NCBI GenBank assembly: GCA_020723805.1 | Contig: DYID01000003.1 | Location: 1-64,000 of the forward strand | Source: Anaerolinea sp. | Lineage (GTDB): Bacteria; Chloroflexota; Anaerolineae; Anaerolineales; Villigracilaceae | DNA length: 64,000 bases | Reading direction: 5' to 3' | Part shown: positions 34,369 through 61,973 of the stretch, one piece after another | Position numbering within the stretch: the first letter of the stretch is position 1 | Layout of the letters: the number at the start of each line of letters is the position of its first letter | Made by a program: the position numbers and the translations under genes | Notes under the pieces: model-generated | What the model was told of the DNA's origin: nothing | What the model saw: the letters and a program-made list of their open reading frames with translations, nothing else | Database searches by the model: none

Positions 34369-35589
34369 GTGGATTCTTTGACTTCTCCTCTCATCCTCGT
34401 CACCGGCGCCACTGGATATATTGCCAGCAGACTCATCCCCCGCCTGTTGGACTCCGGCTATCGTGTCCGCGCCCTTGCCCGGGACCCGCGTCGTCTCTAC
34501 GGGCGCGCTTGGTCCTCCCAAATCGAAATTGTCCACGCTGACGTCACCCTCCCCGAAACCCTGCCCCGCGCCTTCGAGGGCGTCCACACCGCCTACTACC
34601 TCGTCCACAACATGGCGCACGGACGCGGCTACACCGCCCTCGAGCTGGAAGCCGCCCGCGCTTTTGCCTCTGCCGCCGAACGCGCCGGCATGGAACACAT
34701 CATCTACCTCGGCGGGCTGGCAGACCCCGAACAGCACATCGCCCCGCACATGCGTTCCCGCATCGAGACCGGGAAAGTCTTGCGGCAGGGAAAGGTTCCG
34801 GTCACCGAGTTTCGTGCGGGCGTCATCGCTGGCTCGGGCAGCATCTCGTTCGAAATGATCCGCTTCATGACCGAGTTGTTTCCGCTCGTGCCGGGTCCGC
34901 TGTGGCTGAAGAACAAGTCCCAGCCCATCGCCATCCAAAACGTCATTGACTATCTCCTTGCCGCGCTGACCAATCCCAACGGGCGCGGCGGCGTCTTCGA
35001 AATCGGCGGACCGCACATCCACACCTACGCCGACCTGATGCTCCGTTACGCCCGCGCCCGCGGACTCAAACGCCGCATGGTCCTCCTGCCCGGGCTCCCC
35101 GTCTGGTTCATGGCGCTCGGTGTGGCGCTGATGACGCCGGTTCCCTACCCCATTGCTCATGCGCTCATCGGCGGGCTTTCTGCCGACAGCGTGGTCAAAC
35201 ATCCCCAAGCCCTGCAAGCCTTCCCCGAGGTCACATTGATTGACTTCGACGCCGCCATCCGCGACGCCCTCCAGCGCACCCACCCCGACCACATCGAACG
35301 CATCTGGCTGGACGGCAGGTCGGGCGTCAAATCGCTCAAGCACGAAGGCTGTTTTATTCTTCATCTTGATGCCCCTCTCCCACAGGGGAAGGGGTTAGAG
35401 GTGAGGGAGTTTCGTCATACACCCTTCGGCTCGCTCTGGATGGAGCGTGACCGTCAGTCCCAAACCATCCTCTTCTCCCCGCGCGGACTACCGGGCTTCC
35501 TTTATTGGTATCTGCTATACCCCTTGCGCTGGTTGAAATTTTTCGGTTTGCTTTGGAAGCGCAAACAGCAAAACACAACGCGGCATTGA
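34369..35589 (+). CDS. NAD(P)-binding SDR-type protein, shortened paralogue
   Basis: A 406-residue paralogue of the preceding gene, with the same start LVTGATGYIASRLIPRLL and the same LVHNM, HIIYLGGLAD and PVTEFRAG motifs. The DUF2867 domain is largely gone: after about residue 320 a repeat-derived stretch (DAPLPQGKGLEVREF) joins directly to the last DUF2867 strand (QTILFSPRGLPGFLYW). The gene therefore looks like a tandem duplicate that lost about 80 residues where a dispersed repeat sits. It starts with GTG at 34369, with TTG 34378 as alternative. It ends just ahead of the cobalamin riboswitch. Confidence 0.78.
   Translation: MDSLTSPLILVTGATGYIASRLIPRLLDSGYRVRALARDPRRLYGRAWSSQIEIVHADVTLPETLPRAFEGVHTAYYLVHNMAHGRGYTALELEAARAFASAAERAGMEHIIYLGGLADPEQHIAPHMRSRIETGKVLRQGKVPVTEFRAGVIAGSGSISFEMIRFMTELFPLVPGPLWLKNKSQPIAIQNVIDYLLAALTNPNGRGGVFEIGGPHIHTYADLMLRYARARGLKRRMVLLPGLPVWFMALGVALMTPVPYPIAHALIGGLSADSVVKHPQALQAFPEVTLIDFDAAIRDALQRTHPDHIERIWLDGRSGVKSLKHEGCFILHLDAPLPQGKGLEVREFRHTPFGSLWMERDRQSQTILFSPRGLPGFLYWYLLYPLRWLKFFGLLWKRKQQNTTRH
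35368..35412. repeat. Dispersed GC-rich element inside second SDR gene
   Basis: Begins GATGCCCCTCTCCCACAGGG and ends GGGGTTAGAGGTGAGGG. It is the second copy of the element found in aroK at 920-983 and is read in the same frame (APLPQG). It marks the junction where the DUF2867 domain is deleted. Confidence 0.65.
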
Positions 35590-35611
35590 CTTTCCCCCCG
35601 CCCCGTCATAC

Positions 35612-35835
35612 AATACGCACAACCAAATCAGACCAGTCAGCGGCGAAGTCCGGTGCGAATCCGGCGCTGTCCCGCAACTGTGATGTTAGTCAAATAGTCG
35701 AATAGTCATATAGTCTGATAGTCAATCTATAAAACTATGAGACCATAAGACTATAAGACTATAAGACTAACTAAGTCAGGTCGCCCGCCCTGGTCGGTTC
35801 GCCCACTTCTCGCGGAAAGGAGGTGGAGAACGGTC
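35612..35835 (+). promoter_or_regulatory. Cobalamin (adenosylcobalamin-type) riboswitch
   Basis: The aptamer core is clear: GTCCGGTGCGAATCCGGCGC at 35648-35667, then GTCCCGCAACTGTGA (35669-35683) containing the B12-box-like CGCAACTG, and on the 3' side AAGTCAGGTCGCCCGCC (35773-35789), and a GCGGAAAGGAGGTGG segment near 35812. Cobalamin riboswitches shut off B12 uptake or synthesis when the cofactor is abundant, which fits the btuF-btuC-btuD genes behind it. Between core and 3' side there is a long AT-rich arm (35686-35770) built of six-base helices; see separate entry. A terminator-like hairpin at 35859-35881 is the probable expression platform. Confidence 0.93.
35686..35770. repeat. Beaded repeat arm within the riboswitch
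   Basis: The 5' side has TTAGTC and then four ATAGTC blocks, each separated by two bases; the 3' side has ACTAT, GACCAT, two GACTAT and GACTAA, also spaced by two bases. In register, five short helices pair, one with a single mismatch, with 2x2 internal loops between them (period 8). The 3' unit (GACTAT plus two bases) recurs at 39615-39642 ahead of another gene. Confidence 0.8.
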
Positions 35836-35858
35836 CAGTCGGATTGCCTCTCCAACCT

Positions 35859-35881
35859 CCCCAGCCTCGGCTGGGGATTTT
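35859..35881 (+). terminator. Terminator-like hairpin of the riboswitch expression platform
   Basis: CCCCAGCC (35859-35866) pairs with GGCTGGGG (35869-35876) and is followed by ATTTT. It lies between the aptamer and the btuF-like gene and could be formed or prevented by cobalamin binding. Confidence 0.6.
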
Positions 35882-35893
35882 GATTCGCAGTAC

Positions 35894-35940
35894 AGCGACA
35901 TTCATGTCGCTTACCCTGCCCATGCGACATCAATGTCGCA
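35894..35940. repeat. GCGACAT palindromes, copies 2 and 3
   Basis: AGCGACAT/ATGTCGCT at 35894-35911 and TGCGACAT/ATGTCGCA at 35923-35940, both with a two-base loop. They lie in the btuF leader and match the copy at 9020-9035. Confidence 0.7.
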
Positions 35941-35967: not shown

Positions 35968-37233
35968 ATGCTTCGCAAGACCTTGCTTTTGACCCTGCTG
36001 TTCGCCTTCGCCCTTGCAGGCTGTGCGCCCGCTTCCACCCCGACCGAGGCGCCTGCCCCTGCCCCAACCGAAACCCCCGTCGCCGCCGCCCCTACGCAAG
36101 GCGTCCTCATTGCCGCCCCCGAACACAACCTCACCGACGGCTGTGTCGCCGCAGGCGAGTATGACGCTTCGATTGACTACTTCCCCGAAAAAGCCGCGCT
36201 CACCCACACCGAAAACTTCAGCATCGAATACTTCAACAACTACAAAATCGTCACGGTCAAGACGCCCTACCCCGGCGCAACCGAATCGGTGGAGTACGTC
36301 CTCGTCCAGTGCGGCACGCCCGCGCCCGAAGGTTTCCTCGACGAGCAAATCATCGAAGTCCCCGTGCAGACCATCGTCACCATGTCCACCTCCTACCTGC
36401 CCTTCCTCGATGAACTCGGTCTGCTCGACCGCCTCGTCGGGCTGGACGACGCCACCTACGTCAGCAACCCGACCGTGCTGAAGATGGCGGAAGAAGGCAA
36501 ACTGACCATGCTTGGCTATGGCTCCGGCGTCAACGTGGAAAAAGCGCTCGAACTCGCCCCGGACCTGATCATGACCTACGGCTCCGGCGCTCCCGAGTAC
36601 GACGCCCACCCCGTCCTGCTCGAAGCGGGGCTGAAGGTGGCGCTGAACGCCGAGTGGATGGACACTTCCCCGCTGGGACGCGCCGAATGGGGCAAGTTCA
36701 TCGCCGCCTTCTTCAACAAGGAAGCGGACGCCGAAGCCCTTTTTGCTGAAAAGGCGCAAAAATACGAAGAACTCAAAGCCCTTGCCGCCGGCGTGACCGA
36801 AAAACCCACCGTGTTCACCGGCTCCGCCTACCAGGGAACGTGGAACGTGCCGGGCGGAAACAGTTTCGCCGCCGCCTTCCTCAAGGACGCGGGCGCAGAC
36901 TACCTCTGGGCGGACGACGTATCCACCGGCAGCATCCCGCTCGCCTTCGAAGCCGTCTTTGAAAAAGCCAAAGACGCCGACTACTGGGTGAACGTCGGTT
37001 TCTTCTTCACCCTCGCGGACGTGCTCGCCGCCGACGCACGCTACGCCGACTTCGCCGCCTACAAAAACGGCAACGTCTGGAACAACGACGCCAAGACCTC
37101 CCCCAACGGCGGCAACGACTACTACGAAAGCGCCGTTGCCCATCCCGAAATTGTCCTCGCCGACCTCATCAAAATCTTCCACCCCGACCTGCTCCCCGAC
37201 CATGAGTTGGTGTATTACAGGCAGTTGAAATAG
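35968..37233 (+). CDS. btuF: Cobalamin ABC transporter substrate-binding lipoprotein
   Basis: Exported binding protein of 421 residues. Signal peptide with lipobox ending at C18 (FALAGC), a proline/threonine/alanine linker (about 19-45), then a class III (BtuF/FhuD) binding fold, with PVQTIVTMSTSYLPFLDELGLLDRLVGLDD and LAPDLIMTYGSG as core segments. The protein is longer than E. coli BtuF (about 266 residues) because of the linker and an extra N-terminal domain-like stretch. Class III proteins bind B12 or siderophores; the cobalamin riboswitch in its leader makes B12 the likely ligand. GGAG lies about eight bases ahead of the ATG. The symbol is assigned from context. Confidence 0.85.
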   Translation: MLRKTLLLTLLFAFALAGCAPASTPTEAPAPAPTETPVAAAPTQGVLIAAPEHNLTDGCVAAGEYDASIDYFPEKAALTHTENFSIEYFNNYKIVTVKTPYPGATESVEYVLVQCGTPAPEGFLDEQIIEVPVQTIVTMSTSYLPFLDELGLLDRLVGLDDATYVSNPTVLKMAEEGKLTMLGYGSGVNVEKALELAPDLIMTYGSGAPEYDAHPVLLEAGLKVALNAEWMDTSPLGRAEWGKFIAAFFNKEADAEALFAEKAQKYEELKALAAGVTEKPTVFTGSAYQGTWNVPGGNSFAAAFLKDAGADYLWADDVSTGSIPLAFEAVFEKAKDADYWVNVGFFFTLADVLAADARYADFAAYKNGNVWNNDAKTSPNGGNDYYESAVAHPEIVLADLIKIFHPDLLPDHELVYYRQLK

Positions 37234-37251: not shown

Positions 37252-37346
37252 GCGAAAGTCGAAGGTCAGAGACAATTCGACCTTTGACTTTCGACCTTCA
37301 ACCTTCGACCTTCGACCTTCAACCACCCACCACTTACCAATTACCA
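37252..37346. repeat. Tandem GACCTTC and AATTACC repeats before btuC
   Basis: Tandem copies of GACCTTC and GACTTTC (period 7-8) at about 37252-37320, with an inverted part (CGAAAGTCGAAGGTC near 37252 against GACCTTTGACTTTCG), then CACTTACCAATTACCA directly touching the btuC start codon. No ribosome binding site is visible. Confidence 0.75.
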
Positions 37347-38399
37347 ATGCTATCCTTCCCCAAACTCGGACTCCGCGCCTGGATCGTCGTCCTCCTGCTG
37401 GTTATTCTCGCGGCGGCGTTTATCCTCAGCCTCACGCTGGGGTCGGTTCGCATCCCGCCCGAACAGGTGCTACGAATCCTAAGCGGCGGCGAACCCGACA
37501 AAGCCTCGTGGGCAGATGTCATCTTCAAGTTCCGTCTGCCCAAAGCCATCACCGCCCTGCTGGTCGGCGCGGCGCTTTCGGCGGCGGGCTTGCAAATGCA
37601 GACCCTCTTCCGCAACCCGCTGGCAGACCCGTTCATTCTGGGCGTCAGTTCGGGCGCGAGTTTGGGCGTGGCGCTGGTGATTCTCGGCACGGGCGCGGGC
37701 AGCGCTTCCGCCTTCATCGCGGGTCTGAACGCCTTCGGCGACCTCAGCCTGGCGCTTGCCGCCAGTTTGGGCGCGGGGACAGTCCTCGGCGCAGTGCTGA
37801 TCGTTTCCCGCCGCGTACAAAACACCGTCACTTTGCTCATCCTCGGCTTGATGTTCGGCTACCTCACCAACGCCGTCGTCAGCCTGCTCATCTACTTCAG
37901 CCAGCCCGAACGCGTGCAGGTCTTCAGCCTGTGGGCGGCGGGCAGTTTTGGCGGCGTGACCTGGAATCAGATGCGCGTCTTTGCCCCTGTCACCATCGCG
38001 GGCTTGTTCATCGGCTTCGTGATGATGAAGCCCCTCAACGCCCTGCTGCTCGGCGACGACTACGCCCGCTCGCTGGGACTCAACGTCCGCCGCGCCCGCT
38101 TCTGGATTATTTTGAGCGCCTCGCTCCTGGCAGGCGTCTCCACTGCCTTTTGCGGACCCATCTGGTTCATCGGCGTCGCCGTGCCGCATGTGGCGCGCTC
38201 CCTGCTCAACACCGCCGACCACCGCGCCCTGCTCCCCGCCTCCATGCTGATGGGCGCATCCTTCGCCCTCGTCGCGGATGTCATCGCCCAGGCGCCGGGC
38301 AGTCAATACGTTTTGCCGCTCAATGTTGTCATGTCCCTCTTTGGCGTGCCTGTCATCCTCTGGGTCATCCTGCACCAGCGCCAATTGCGTTTCTCGTGA
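37347..38399 (+). CDS. btuC: Cobalamin ABC transporter permease (FecCD family)
   Basis: Membrane permease of 350 residues with about ten helices, of the FecCD/BtuC family. Family motifs: VRIPPEQVLRIL (about residues 37-48), FRLPKAITALLVGAALSAAGLQMQ split near 61-84, NPLADPFILGVSSGASLG (about 89-106), and the coupling-helix region GPIWFIGVAVPHVARSL (about 270-286). It dimerises and works with the ATPase that follows. The ATG at 37347 follows an AATTACCA repeat without ribosome binding site; upstream in-frame codons would encode repeat sequence only. The gap to the next gene is another AATTACC array. Confidence 0.92.
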   Translation: MLSFPKLGLRAWIVVLLLVILAAAFILSLTLGSVRIPPEQVLRILSGGEPDKASWADVIFKFRLPKAITALLVGAALSAAGLQMQTLFRNPLADPFILGVSSGASLGVALVILGTGAGSASAFIAGLNAFGDLSLALAASLGAGTVLGAVLIVSRRVQNTVTLLILGLMFGYLTNAVVSLLIYFSQPERVQVFSLWAAGSFGGVTWNQMRVFAPVTIAGLFIGFVMMKPLNALLLGDDYARSLGLNVRRARFWIILSASLLAGVSTAFCGPIWFIGVAVPHVARSLLNTADHRALLPASMLMGASFALVADVIAQAPGSQYVLPLNVVMSLFGVPVILWVILHQRQLRFS

Positions 38400-38401
38400 C
38401 A

Positions 38402-38424
38402 ATTACCAGTTACCAATTACCAAC
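38402..38424. repeat. AATTACC array before btuD
   Basis: ATTACCAGTTACCAATTACC-type array between the btuC stop (38399) and the btuD ATG (38425). It takes the place of a ribosome binding site. Confidence 0.75.
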
Positions 38425-39432
38425 ATGCTCACCACCTCCTCCCTCACCATCGGCTACCACCGCAGACCCATCGCATTCAGCCTCGACCTTGAACTGCGTC
38501 CCGCTGAAATGGTCTGCCTCATCGGACCGAACGGCGCGGGCAAATCCACCCTGCTGCGCACGCTGGCGGGGATGCAGGAGCCGCTCTCAGGGACGGTGAG
38601 ACTGGGCGGCGCCGACCTGTTCTCCATCCCCGCCCTCGAACTGGCGAAACAACTTGCCGTCGTTCTCACGGGGCGCGTCGAAGCGGGCAACCTCTCCGCC
38701 TACGCTCTCGTCACGCTGGGGCGTCATCCCTACACCGACTGGCTCGGACGCCTCACCCCCCGCGACGAAGAAGCCGTCCGCCGCGCCATGCAATTGACAG
38801 GCTGCGAAGCCCTCGCCGCCCGTCCCATCCACGAACTCAGCGACGGCGAACGTCAAAAAGTGATGATCGCCCGCGCCCTTGCACAAGAACCCAAAGTTCT
38901 CCTCCTCGACGAACCCACCGCCTTCCTCGACCTGCCCCGCCGCGTCGAACTCCTCCAACTCCTCAAACGCCTCTCGCGCGAGACCCGCTGCGCCGTCCTG
39001 CTCTCCACCCACGACCTCGACCTCGCCCTGCGCATCGCCGACAAACTCTGGCTGCTCTCCTCGAGCGGCGAACTGCACATCGGCTTGCCCGAAGAACTCG
39101 CCCTCAACGGCGCGCTTGCCCGCGTCTTCCAAAGCGAAGGCGTGGAATTCGACCACGCCCGCGGCGCCTTCAAAGTCCACCAGCCTGTGTGCGGACCCAT
39201 CAGCCTGCATGGCGACCGTGACGGCGTCGCCACCGCCTGGACCTGGCGCGCCCTCGAACGCATCGGCTACGAAGTCCACAACAACGGCGTCCGCCGCCCC
39301 GTCCACGTGGACGTGCTGGACTCGCATCACTGGCATCTCACCACCCCACACGGACAAAGCGACCACCCCACCCTTGCATCCCTCCTCAATGCCCTCACTG
39401 CCCCATCAGGAAATGAACCCAAGCGGGGTTGA
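38425..39432 (+). CDS. btuD: Cobalamin ABC transporter ATP-binding protein with C-terminal extension
   Basis: ABC ATPase of 335 residues. Walker A GPNGAGKST (about 35-43), Q-loop region, signature LSDGERQKVMIARAL (about 138-152), Walker B KVLLLDEPTAFLD (about 157-169), and the switch histidine in LLSTHDLD. It drives B12 import with BtuC. A normal BtuD ends near residue 255; this protein has about 80 more residues (VCGPISLHGDRDGVATAWTW onward) that form a small unknown domain, possibly regulatory. The ATG at 38425 is chosen because it starts the first beta strand; the region before it is an AATTACC repeat and btuC coding sequence. Confidence 0.9.
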   Translation: MLTTSSLTIGYHRRPIAFSLDLELRPAEMVCLIGPNGAGKSTLLRTLAGMQEPLSGTVRLGGADLFSIPALELAKQLAVVLTGRVEAGNLSAYALVTLGRHPYTDWLGRLTPRDEEAVRRAMQLTGCEALAARPIHELSDGERQKVMIARALAQEPKVLLLDEPTAFLDLPRRVELLQLLKRLSRETRCAVLLSTHDLDLALRIADKLWLLSSSGELHIGLPEELALNGALARVFQSEGVEFDHARGAFKVHQPVCGPISLHGDRDGVATAWTWRALERIGYEVHNNGVRRPVHVDVLDSHHWHLTTPHGQSDHPTLASLLNALTAPSGNEPKRG

Positions 39433-39504: not shown

Positions 39505-39529
39505 TCAATCCGTTGAACAAAACACTTTC

Positions 39530-39642
39530 GACTTTTGACTTTCGACTTTCGACCCTCGACTTCCGACTTTCGACTTTCGACCCTCGACTTCCGACCTTCG
39601 ACCCTCCCTCATCCGACCATCAGACTACAAGACTATGAGACT
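39530..39642. repeat. Tandem GACTTTCGAC and GACTATGA arrays before binding-protein gene
   Basis: About ten copies of GACTTTC/GACCCTC/GACTTCC units (period 7-8) at 39535-39605, then GACCATCA, GACTACAA, GACTATGA, GACTATGA at 39615-39642. The last unit runs straight into the ATG at 39643. The second array is the same unit as the 3' half of the riboswitch arm. Confidence 0.8.
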
Positions 39643-40467
39643 ATGAGACTCTACTGCGACCCCCTCCGCGACCACGTCCACATCCCCGAACGCCCGCGCC
39701 GCATCGTCTCCCTCGCCTCGGGGCTGACCGAAGCCCTCGTCCACATGGGCTGGGGCGACTCCATCGTTGGCGTCTCCGAATTTTGTCCGCGCTACACGCC
39801 GCAACTGCAAGCCCCCATCGTCGGCGACTACCTCAAAGTGGACGACGCCGCCCTGCGCGAAACCCAGCCCGACCTCATCCTGCTCACCACAGGCATTCAG
39901 CGCACGCTGGCGTACAAACTGCATCAACAGGGCTTGCCTGTGTACCTTCTTCCGCTTCCCAACAGCCTGCATGGCGTTTTGGAAAACGTCCTGACTCTCG
40001 GCGCGCTCGTGGATGACCTCCCTGCCGCCCGCGCCTTGATCCAAAAATGGAACCGCCTCTTTCTGGACCTCGAAGCGGATTCGCCAACCCCCAAGCCTCG
40101 CATCTACGCCGAACTCTGGTTCGGAAAACACGTCCGCATGACGGGCGGGCTGACCTTCGTCCACGACCTCATCCAGGCGGCAGGCGGCGAAAACATCTTC
40201 GGCGATGTCCGCACGGGCTACCTCGCGCTGGACACAAAAGAAGTCGAGCGCCGCAAACCCGACCTCTTCCTGTGCTTCTCCGAACCCGAACATCCCGTCC
40301 AGGCTGTTGACCTGATGCGCGAGCGCGGCTGGGACTTTCCCTACATCCAAGCCGACGTTCAGCCCGAACACAACCTCATCCACGACGGACCCTCCATGAT
40401 GCAAGCCGCCCAATGGCTGCATGAAACAATTACCAATTACCAATCACCCATTACCGCAACTCACTGA
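39643..40467 (+). CDS. Signal-less cobalamin-binding-protein-like (BtuF fold)
   Basis: A 274-residue protein of the class III substrate-binding fold: RPRRIVSLASGLTEALVHMGWGDSIVGVSEFC (residues 17-48, shown in part), QPDLILLTTGIQ and MTGGLTFVHDLIQAAGGENIFGDV are typical for BtuF-like proteins. There is no signal peptide or lipobox, so the protein should stay in the cytoplasm. Signal-less BtuF relatives exist in other bacteria and may pass cobalamin or a precursor on after import. The C-terminus (ETITNYQSPITATH) is encoded by an AATTACC repeat and is unlikely to be functional. It lies in line behind btuFCD. Confidence 0.78.
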   Translation: MRLYCDPLRDHVHIPERPRRIVSLASGLTEALVHMGWGDSIVGVSEFCPRYTPQLQAPIVGDYLKVDDAALRETQPDLILLTTGIQRTLAYKLHQQGLPVYLLPLPNSLHGVLENVLTLGALVDDLPAARALIQKWNRLFLDLEADSPTPKPRIYAELWFGKHVRMTGGLTFVHDLIQAAGGENIFGDVRTGYLALDTKEVERRKPDLFLCFSEPEHPVQAVDLMRERGWDFPYIQADVQPEHNLIHDGPSMMQAAQWLHETITNYQSPITATH

Positions 40468-40496
40468 TCACTGCCTTACTGATCACTGATTACCAC
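40429..40496. repeat. AATTACC and ACTGATC arrays at the end of the binding-protein gene
   Basis: ATTACCAATTACCAATC (40429-40446) encodes the C-terminus of the preceding protein, followed by ACTGATCACT units (40460-40490) up to the CCCCCC just ahead of the next ATG. Confidence 0.75.
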
Positions 40497-50343: not shown

Positions 50344-50739
50344 ATGACCTTCAAAGAATTCATCTACTCTCGCATCCGCTCGTTCGGACACGCCTTTCGC
50401 GGCTGGTGGTATGTTCTCAAAACCCAGCACAACGCCTGGATTCATGCCGTCGCCGCAGTGGCGGTTTTTCTCCTCGCCCTCTGGCTGGGACTGCCTCCCC
50501 GCGATTGGGCGGTCCTCATCCTGACCGTGACGATGGTCTTCGCCGCCGAATTCGTCAACACCGCCATCGAAGCGGTTGTGGATTTGGCGAGCCCGGTCCA
50601 CCACCCGCTGGCAAAGGTGGGCAAGGACGTGGGCGCGGCGGCGGTGCTCATCGCGGCGCTGGCGGCAGTGATCATCGGTCTGCTCATTCTCGGTCCGCCG
50701 TTGTGGGTAAAACTCATTGCACTGCTCGCTAATCACTGA
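50344..50739 (+). CDS. dgkA: Diacylglycerol/undecaprenol kinase (DgkA family)
   Basis: Small membrane kinase with 131 residues and three helices (about 35-52, 58-76, 100-125). The family signature with the catalytic glutamates is visible: EFVNTAIEAVVDLASP. Gram-positive relatives phosphorylate undecaprenol rather than diacylglycerol; the substrate here is not known. The ATG at 50344 begins at the usual position (MTFKEFIYSRIRSFGHAFRG). A TTG at 50299 would add 15 basic residues; neither has a good ribosome binding site. It ends at a repeat array. Confidence 0.88.
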   Translation: MTFKEFIYSRIRSFGHAFRGWWYVLKTQHNAWIHAVAAVAVFLLALWLGLPPRDWAVLILTVTMVFAAEFVNTAIEAVVDLASPVHHPLAKVGKDVGAAAVLIAALAAVIIGLLILGPPLWVKLIALLANH

Positions 50740-50815
50740 ACACTGATCACCGACAACTGATCATTGATAACTGATCACTGATAACTGATCACTGCTTACT
50801 CTTAACTGTCAACTG
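50740..50815. repeat. Tandem ACTGATCACTGATAA array
   Basis: Seven or more copies of ACTGATCA/CTGATAA units (period 8) between dgkA and the TIM-barrel gene, ending at CAACTGGAGACACC, where GGAG serves as ribosome binding site for the next ATG (50824). The same unit occurs at 623-660 and 40460-40490. Confidence 0.8.
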
Positions 50816-58858: not shown

Positions 58859-58908
58859 CTCCTCTTTCTTCTTTCCTCTTTCTTCTTTCCCCTTTCCTCC
58901 CTTATAAT
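58859..58908 (+). promoter_or_regulatory. Pyrimidine tract and -10 box before the lipoprotein gene
   Basis: A CTTT/CTTC tract (58859-58900), like that at 661-718, ends in TATAAT (58903-58908). The TTG start at 58936 would lie about 20 bases beyond the transcription start. Confidence 0.4.
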
Positions 58909-60860: not shown

Positions 60861-61973
60861 ATGGAACAGAAACATCCGTCCATCAACCTCTTCCGCCTTC
60901 TCCTCAAGGCAGGCATTCTGTTTGCCCTGTTCAATTTTGCGTTTGTCTTCGTCAATCTCGAAGCGCTCGGCAGGCTTTCCCTCTACAACCGCCTCTTTCC
61001 CGGACGTGAGCGCTTTCCCTTCGGCGAGACGCGCGCCTCCTACAACCTCAGCCTCTACAACCTCAACGCCATGTTCGCCTCGCACGTTCTGACCGGCGCA
61101 GAAAAATCGTCCGACGAATACCGCGTCCTGCTCATCGGCGATTCATCCGTGTGGGGTACACTGCTCACGCCGGAACAGACCCTCGCCGGTCAACTCAACG
61201 CCCGCGCCCTCGCCGCCTGCGGAAGGACCGTCCGCGCCTACAACCTCGGCTACCCCACCATCTCTCTGACCAAAGACCTAATGCTCCTCGACCAGGCGCT
61301 CGCCTATCAGCCCGATATGGTCATTGTCCTCACCACCCTCGAGGCGTTCCCGCTCGACAAACAGTTCGAATCCCCGCTCGCCGCCAATAACGCCGAACGC
61401 ATCCGCCACTTAATTACCAATTACCAATTACCTCTCGAACCCAATGACCCAGCGTTGATCCACCCCTCGAAACGGGACCAGACCTTCCTGAGTCGGAGGC
61501 GGGCGGTTGCCGACCTCATCCGTCTGCAACTCTATGGGGCGTTGTGGGCATCCACCGGCATAGACCAGGTCTATCCCGAAAACTATGAACGCGCCCAAAC
61601 CGACCTCGATGCCGACCTCGCATATCACGGTCTCACCCAGCCTTCGGAACTGCGCGGCGCGCTGGCGTTGGAAGTCCTCGACGCGCTCATGAACGCCGCC
61701 GATGTCCCCACCCTTTTGGTCAACGAACCGATGCTCGTCAGCAACGGGCAGAACAGCGGCATCCGCTATAATTTTTTCTACCCGCGCTGGGCATACGACG
61801 AATACCGCCGCCTGCTCGCCGAGCGCGCCGCACAAAACGGCTGGAACTACCTCGACCTTTGGAACATCGCGCCGCTGAACGAATTCACCAACAGCGCCAT
61901 TCATCTCACCCCCTCCGGCGAAGCCCTGCTTGCAGACAAACTCGCCGAGGCAATTCCAATGATTTGCAAATAG
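60861..61973 (+). CDS. SGNH-like protein, AlgJ/AlgX-type partner
   Basis: A 370-residue protein with one N-terminal membrane helix (about 13-33) and an exported SGNH-like domain. The nucleophile motif is GDSS (93-96, serine S95), and the histidine is H348 near the C-terminus (NSAIHLTPSGEA); the usual aspartate three residues before the histidine is serine. The partner role, transfer of the acetyl group to glycan after the MBOAT step, is inferred from the AlgI-AlgJ type pairing. In the middle, residues about 184-193 (LITNYQLPLE) derive from an AATTACC repeat. It begins directly after the MBOAT stop codon. Confidence 0.78.
   Translation: MEQKHPSINLFRLLLKAGILFALFNFAFVFVNLEALGRLSLYNRLFPGRERFPFGETRASYNLSLYNLNAMFASHVLTGAEKSSDEYRVLLIGDSSVWGTLLTPEQTLAGQLNARALAACGRTVRAYNLGYPTISLTKDLMLLDQALAYQPDMVIVLTTLEAFPLDKQFESPLAANNAERIRHLITNYQLPLEPNDPALIHPSKRDQTFLSRRRAVADLIRLQLYGALWASTGIDQVYPENYERAQTDLDADLAYHGLTQPSELRGALALEVLDALMNAADVPTLLVNEPMLVSNGQNSGIRYNFFYPRWAYDEYRRLLAERAAQNGWNYLDLWNIAPLNEFTNSAIHLTPSGEALLADKLAEAIPMICK
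61412..61433. repeat. AATTACC repeat inside SGNH gene
   Basis: Three tandem AATTACC units in frame inside the coding region, giving TNYQLP. The same unit is otherwise intergenic (2267, 37336, 38402, 40429). Confidence 0.7.

Follow-up and report, generated by a model that had tools for sequence, protein, structure and literature searches.

The riboswitch leader and importer genes

The window, a stretch of 64,000 nucleotides from Anaerolinea sp. (assembly GCA_020723805.1, contig DYID01000003.1, positions 1 to 64,000 of the forward strand), contains a cobalamin riboswitch whose leader is bracketed by a promoter-like site (35586–35614) and a terminator-like hairpin (35858–35877) and which precedes genes of a predicted importer. 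The features of the locus, all on the + strand, are listed here with the evidence for each.

35586–35614, +, sigma-70-type promoter-like site 5′ of the leader, TTGACT-17-TACAAT (10 of 12 consensus matches; consensus match only)
35631–35636, +, 5′ strand of the closing stem, GACCAG, complement of CTGGTC at 35790–35795 (sequence)
35649–35681, +, 5′ part of the aptamer core, including CCC of L5 at 35671–35673 (RF00174 alignment; helix names putative)
35686–35723, +, 5′ repeat array of the arm, with five blocks of the ATAGTC type and 2-nt spacers (sequence, Tandem Repeats Finder, fold)
35724–35732, +, gap separating both arrays, terminal loop region (fold)
35733–35770, +, 3′ repeat array of the arm, with five blocks of the GACTAT type, complement of the 5′ array (sequence, Tandem Repeats Finder, fold)
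35774–35796, +, 3′ part of the aptamer core, AGTCAGGTCGCCCGCC... (RF00174 alignment as far as 35780; kept in relatives)
35809–35816, +, L13-like loop CTCGCGGA, putative partner of L5 in a kissing interaction (letters vary with L5 across relatives; assignment putative)
35858–35885, +, intrinsic-terminator-like hairpin of the expression platform, stem 35858–35877 (sequence; kept in G014)
35968–37233, +, periplasmic binding protein, BtuF/FecB type (domain match, PF01497)
37284–38399, +, FecCD/BtuC-type permease (domain match, PF01032)
38278–39432, +, ABC transporter ATPase, start codon uncertain (domain match, PF00005)
39524–39602, +, heptamer array, ACTTTCG type (Tandem Repeats Finder)
39615–39650, +, one-sided octamer array of the family of the riboswitch arm (pattern search, Tandem Repeats Finder)
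39643–40467, +, second BtuF-like gene, likely ATG in the last repeat unit (domain match, PF01497; start predicted from sequence)

The assignment of the host RNA to the cobalamin riboswitches, made in the initial annotation from the letters alone, holds under the Rfam covariance model RF00174, which matches 35649–35780 with 35.6 bits against a gathering score of 31.5 in an alignment that spans only model positions 51–163 of 189. It is the one cobalamin riboswitch that RF00174 detects in the genome. Five loose-threshold matches to other Rfam families in 35580–35900 were far below their cut-offs and were counted as chance. A similar promoter-like site was seen by eye in some relatives, such as those with the handles G004 and G014 (G, L and C numbers are our handles for genomes, loci and contigs). 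In 98 arm records of related rows, one of which was later removed as false, CCC in L5 occurs with GTGG (20) or GCGG (19) in L13, and CGC or AGC with GCGG (18), GCAG (12) or GCGA (5) and never with GTGG; this is an association of letters among related rows, and 24 of the 98 records have other or unread loops. The way in which the L5 and L13 letters go together, and the platform and terminator kept between G000 and G014, suggest constraint on the switch.

Judged by their domains, the three genes 3′ of the riboswitch have the make-up of a B12/siderophore-type importer; the families PF01497, PF01032 and PF00005 serve siderophore import too. The eight named relatives of the first binding protein (71% identity or more) are all MAGs, labelled Chloroflexi, Anaerolineales, Anaerolineae or Candidatus Villigracilaceae, the last being a family within Anaerolineales.

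The repeat arm and its dispersed family

Between the two parts of the core lies an arm (35682–35773), flanked by CGCAACTGT and AGTCAGG, that is a hairpin with five 8-nt units on each side, each unit being a six-base block with a two-base spacer. Its position in the alignment to RF00174, together with the description in PMC11260477, would make the arm the P6 extension. The 5′ side (35686–35723) reads TTAGTC and then ATAGTC four times, with the spacers AA, GA, AT and TG, and the 3′ side (35733–35770) reads AACTAT, GACCAT, GACTAT, GACTAT and GACTAA, with the spacers GA, AA, AA and AA; period 8 is read directly from both sides, and both arrays are called by Tandem Repeats Finder (35687–35725 and 35727–35769). 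Folded alone, the arm has a minimum free energy (MFE) of −35.2 kcal/mol (z −8.16), which none of 200 shuffles equalled, and the fold of the 271-nt leader contains the identical hairpin. In the MFE structure the first three helices have 7, 6 and 6 pairs with 2×2 loops between them, the fourth block is split by a single A–C mismatch and the spacers there are partly paired, and the fifth block has 5 pairs and an 11-nt loop. The five short helices of period 8 and the single mismatch of the initial annotation are thereby borne out, and its two unpaired bases on both sides of each junction are found at the two outer junctions but not in the inner part, where a strict alternation of helix and 2×2 loop had to be rejected.

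The octamer is also found elsewhere. In the window GACTATNNGACTATNNGAC is matched 13 times when as many as 3 mismatches are allowed (0.43 expected), and in the 3.69-Mb genome 196 times when as many as 2 are allowed, whereas the reversed pattern gives 41 matches, so that the repeat family suspected in the initial annotation is real and dispersed. The unit is short, degenerate and tandem, as in repeats of the STRR type, and is 8 nt long. The exact matches form 25 separate places (C11:143435 among them). Eleven of these places, among them the riboswitch, have an ATAGTC-type array and, no more than 100 nt 3′ of it, a GACTAT-type array, and none of the 25 has the reverse order; the other 14 were not scored as hairpins, and one of these (C44) has a more distant inverted partner. 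The same order holds for all eight neighbouring opposite octamer pairs in G088, and neighbouring opposite pairs of other repeat families in about 834 kb of the window's own genome share it with one exception, AATTAC. Twelve of the 24 dispersed places overlap a crude open frame, a count that is uninformative on gene context. The 6+2 spacing is also present in one-sided arrays, and hence the period-8 beads are a trait of the repeat family and not evidence of RNA design.

One such one-sided array, which the initial annotation had noted as intergenic at 39615–39642, is real and extends to 39650; because its end reaches the probable start codon of the second BtuF-like gene, an ATG at 39643 that the array itself seems to provide, intergenic is only approximately right. 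Period-7 arrays occur in the window at 622–688, 2238–2285, 37276–37348, 38400–38423, 40427–40490, 50720–50808, 58860–58899 and 61412–61432, and belong to the CACTGAT, CCTCTTT, CAATTAC/AATTACC and TTCGACC families.

Arms in related genomes and tests of pairing

Of 121 related genomes, 110 have an RF00174 match, and the arm census comprises 97 arms from 92 of the 110, a false arm in G102 having been removed. Sixteen genomes were left out (G073, G081–G084, G086, G087, G091, G093, G098, G099, G104–G106, G117 and G118), and G097 and G120 were lost for want of anchors, the anchorless loci being six in all (L061, L245–L248 and L250). With labels set by a 60-nt cut and by motif counts, 53 arms are plain (15–53 nt, median 23) and 44 are long (65–225 nt, median 84.5), and some of the plain ones contain repeat-like units (G054, G056, G059). 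The long arms mostly consist of paired repeats of period 7 or 8: 17 have a GAC octamer, 10 an AAC octamer, 4 a GCTAA and 2 a GCTGA heptamer, 2 a CACTGA heptamer and 9 something else. A single base separates GAC from AAC and likewise GCTAA from GCTGA, and the nine others look repeat-like by eye in G051 (GAATAGA), G077 (GGAATC) and G113 (ATAGC), and not clearly so in G042. The 225-nt GAC-octamer arm of L252 (G116) includes, in its 5′ array, three copies of a hairpin sequence of about 27 nt.

The initial annotation had staked its reading on variation of this arm among relatives, and both length and repeat content vary. The 18 arms of the window's genus (22–218 nt) comprise 10 with the GAC octamer, 5 with the AAC octamer, 1 with the GCTGA heptamer and 2 plain ones. 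Arm state varies inside 12 of the 15 genera that have several arms; summed within genera, assumed to be monophyletic, there are at least 19 differences of state, or 15 without the three genera that have paralogues in the same genome. Among such paralogous riboswitches, the three of G079 (L237–L239) have three different arms and the two of G031 (L092, L243) have one plain and one octamer arm. Median identity in the genus is 0.86 for core plus platform and 0.57 for the arm, which is less alike in 150 of 153 pairs. Outside the arm G000 and G014 are 95% identical, and their arms differ by indels; compared with G000, only G014 has TGAGTC on its 5′ side and, complementary to it, GACTCA on its 3′ side, both blocks departing from the consensus, a pair that is consistent with paired growth, either through selection or through copying. 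An intermediate arm of 44 nt with AAC-type units occurs at L164, in one MAG. The arm was readable in 16 of 34 named loci, and in five of these (Roseiflexus, Chloroflexaceae and Chloroflexales) it is a hairpin of 20–27 nt, which suggests, by distribution and not by a tree, that the plain form is ancestral. Twelve of the 17 other members of the window's genus fall under Rfam's cut-off for RF00174, which shows that cobalamin riboswitches of this kind can be undercalled by a covariance model.

All 34 of the 44 long arms that entered the shuffle test (100 shuffles each) were more stable than their shuffles, with z from −2.1 (G103) to −10.8, and plain arms are hairpins as well. The register of the two sides was examined in 22 of the 27 octamer arms, G002, G014, G063 and G116 (less than 60% in register) and G031 (not tiled) being set aside; in those four the 8-nt register is lost. 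In the blocks 559 of 660 positions are paired, against 527.8 ± 6.0 when the 3′ blocks are permuted (reached in 0 of 2000 permutations), and in the spacers 45 of 176, against 48.3 (reached in 1637 of 2000). Without the outermost block the values are 428 of 528 against 418.8 (51 of 2000), and without both this block and G032 they are 412 of 510 against 408.1 (211 of 2000), a weak signal which implies that much of the inner pairing follows from having one unit on both sides. A folding version of the permutation test on 32 long arms gave a mean z of −0.87 with 23 of 32 negative (p = 9e-5), and with the outermost unit fixed −0.48 with 21 of 29 negative (p = 0.024); in 9 of the 32 the native order of 3′ units is not stabler than the mean permuted order. 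Taken together, the two tests indicate clear co-adaptation at the arm's base, weak co-adaptation further in and none in the spacers. With the same scoring, 22 of the 27 octamer arms but only 10 of the 24 other exact-match places of the window's own genome are two-sided, a comparison of arms from several genomes with places from one. The five exceptions are G003, G019, G031, G075 and G088, and a looser unit leaves two of them, giving 25 of 27. The proposal that the repeats were kept as base-paired structure is thus supported by this excess and by the in-register blocks, with most of the signal in the outermost block.

The dispersed repeats of 47 chosen genomes were compared with their arms, matches within a genome's own arm being subtracted. 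The median log2 of the GAC/AAC ratio is 0.17 in GAC-armed and −2.37 in AAC-armed genomes (p = 0.003), and GAC exceeds AAC in 9 of 15 GAC-armed against 1 of 9 AAC-armed genomes (p = 0.03). GCTAA arrays are commoner in GCTAA-armed genomes than in the rest (p = 0.002), and total repeat load has a median of 69 in 33 long-armed against 7.5 in 14 other genomes (p = 5e-6); the rows share descent, and therefore the p-values of this study are too small. The arm unit thus tends to be one that is common in the same genome, with exceptions. AAC equals or exceeds GAC in 6 of 15 GAC-armed genomes (G002, G003, G005, G009, G017 and G021), the reverse case among AAC arms being G001; G003 and G005 are almost without dispersed octamers, and GCTAA abounds in G088 (72) and G016 (54), neither of which has a GCTAA arm. 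A reversed-pattern control of the GCTAA search (154 in G000) was dropped as a background, as it probably matches another repeat family.

Origin of the arm and comparable RNAs

We consider it likely that the P6-extension arm of a cobalamin riboswitch that is ordinary in other respects is tolerant and has been colonised again and again by dispersed tandem repeats, which are kept when they are paired. The ancestral arm was probably a plain hairpin of 15–50 nt, and the P6 extension would require a short hairpin that closes it, or at least take no harm from one. Genomes of this group are stocked with degenerate 7- and 8-mers, part of them already in inverted pairs, and some of these would enter the arm, where the plain hairpin would be replaced or enlarged by the dispersed degenerate octamer with its six conserved and two free bases. 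Since the octamer is inverted between the two sides, it would pair as a long irregular helix, and since the ligand-binding junction does not include the arm, for which closure alone would be enough, paired repeats would be tolerated. Repeats that leave the arm closed would persist, vary in unit number and give way to other repeats common in the genome. We infer the order of these events, the unit-wise growth, the exchange with dispersed copies, the selection for closure and a working switch.

That the arm received a ready-made beaded hairpin, REP-like or MITE-like and moved whole by a Y1/RAYT-type transposase, is rather unlikely. The identical hairpin form at 10 other octamer places, always in the order ATAGTC then GACTAT, the seven Y1_Tnp matches in the genome and the seemingly abrupt swaps between unit families would all fit such a whole insertion; however, the loops and flanks of the dispersed hairpins vary by eye, 14 of the 25 octamer places were not scored as hairpins, and the indels between G000 and G014 are about the size of a unit and not of a whole element. 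No octamer array of at least three units was found at any of the seven Y1_Tnp loci (2.1–3.4 kb examined at each), and a Y1 transposase was rejected as the mover on this count; a GACTTT hairpin occurs at one of these loci together with a CAATTAC array, and a CACTGA array at another. It is unlikely, too, that one side was copied from the other at replication, by template switching at a quasi-palindrome and without selection on the RNA. Such copying would account for the complementary TGAGTC and GACTCA blocks in G014 and for helices that continue through the spacers in G004, G061 and G016, but it would match blocks and spacers alike, and hence the result for the 22 octamer arms, in which blocks are paired above the permuted level and spacers are not (45 of 176 against 48.3), counts against copying as a general mechanism.

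Neutral growth of the arrays, with pairing as a by-product of one repeat family on both sides and without selective meaning, is also rather unlikely, although one-sided arrays show the same unit conservation and 6+2 spacing and the register signal of the inner blocks is weak. Against it stand the larger share of two-sided arms (22 of 27, from several genomes) than of two-sided octamer places elsewhere (10 of 24, from one genome), the clear co-adaptation of the outermost block and the finding that plain arms are hairpins as well. A positive function of the long arm, which might slow or order co-transcriptional folding or bind a protein and so tune the switch, appears quite improbable: the recurrence of long arms across many genera is all that speaks for it, and the arms read have no conserved unit or length, 22–36 nt suffice in sister species and 15–20 nt in other genera. 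Improbable as well is a more far-reaching version of repeat colonisation, in which repeat hairpins would keep landing in the P6 extension of this order's cobalamin riboswitches, being lost from it and being exchanged there, and in which the number of units would determine how long after the first half of the aptamer the second is transcribed, so that slippage of dispersed repeats would tune B12 control between strains; if true, this would be a contingency-type riboswitch. Under the reading that we prefer, colonisation of a tolerant arm by repeats kept when paired, the locus is a natural experiment, in which one conserved aptamer has undergone many arm replacements (15–225 nt) in related species. 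It offers material for asking what a peripheral RNA arm must do, and the comparison of blocks with spacers parts selection for pairing from repeat biology.

In core, terminator-like platform and B12-type importer genes 3′ of it, the element resembles other RF00174 riboswitches. According to PMC11260477, peripheral elements issue from the P3–P6 junction enclosing the ligand, and in the Mycobacterium metE riboswitch the P6 extension includes a second four-way junction (P7, P8, P10 and P11). Such a second junction, a trait of Class I cobalamin riboswitches, was not found here, where the arm folds as a single repeat hairpin and, going by the same paper, is nearer to the truncated P6 extension of ppe2. 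The nearest case of a repeat-built stem appears to be P6b of the Nostoc tRNA-Leu(UAA) group I intron, which, as described in PMC4476775, is a stem-loop of Class I (TDNGATT) or Class II (NNTGAGT) repeats, 50–126 nt long in one type and 52–83 nt in the other, in which one repeat class replaced another repeatedly. Both are peripheral stems of variable length made of complementary degenerate short repeats in a structured RNA; that one is a group I intron with two 7-nt classes in lichen-symbiotic Nostoc, whereas here the host is a riboswitch in a Chloroflexota order, the units are of more types and have period 7 or 8, and sister species have plain arms. Dispersed, degenerate heptamer arrays of the GGGAATC type in Xanthomonas, with related ones in Nostoc, include 70 and 75 cases of close opposite-strand pairs with one polarity (convergent) and so share the one-way order of the octamer pairs, but are G-rich, were studied for quadruplex formation and are not described as lying in a riboswitch (PMC4692102). 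REP elements, as described in PMC3733652, are single palindromes of 20–40 bp with GTAG/CGTC tags, GTAG repeats being reported in Chloroflexi and other phyla; the octamer hairpins are dispersed palindromes like these and differ in having tandem units on each side. No fixed GTAG/CGTC tag was noticed by eye at the dispersed octamer hairpins, and no REP-like link to a Y1 (RAYT) transposase was found at the seven Y1_Tnp loci of the window's own genome.

A literature search of titles and abstract openings, with incomplete coverage, returned no report of tandem repeats in a riboswitch arm and, for Anaerolineae, nothing about repeats of this sort. Vioque (1997) reportedly described STRR sequences within the gene for RNase P RNA in heterocyst-forming cyanobacteria; these and the present arm are short tandem repeats in the gene of a structured RNA, and RNA and phylum differ. 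By analogy, the arm would add a riboswitch to the hosts of repeat-built stems, among which a group I intron is already known and RNase P RNA has been reported.

Among other structured RNAs of the window's genus, the TPP riboswitch (110–112 nt in 17 of 17 matches; none in G009) and tmRNA (17 full-length matches of 365–396 nt; none in G008) are nearly constant in length and were discarded as further repeat hosts. RNase P RNA has 14 full-length matches of 431–535 nt, and by eye its arm after CCACAGAAACA holds, in several genomes, a GC-rich inverted repeat that differs from the octamer, while other genomes have a short plain hairpin there. Dispersed hairpins thus seem to be tolerated in at least two structured RNAs, with different repeat families. 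A GC-rich inverted repeat of the CCCTCTCCC...GGGAGAGGG type lies upstream of the riboswitch, at 35367–35410 of the window, and a related one is seen by eye in the RNase P RNA arm of G000, G004, G006, G007, G011, G016 and G017 (loci L202–L204, L208, L209, L211 and L212). Contigs seem to stop inside RNase P RNA at L210 (G009), L211 (G016), L212 (G017) and L213 (G003), and three of these four genomes have other pieces of RNase P RNA elsewhere; the contig ends are probably assembly breaks, and may mark an integration site.
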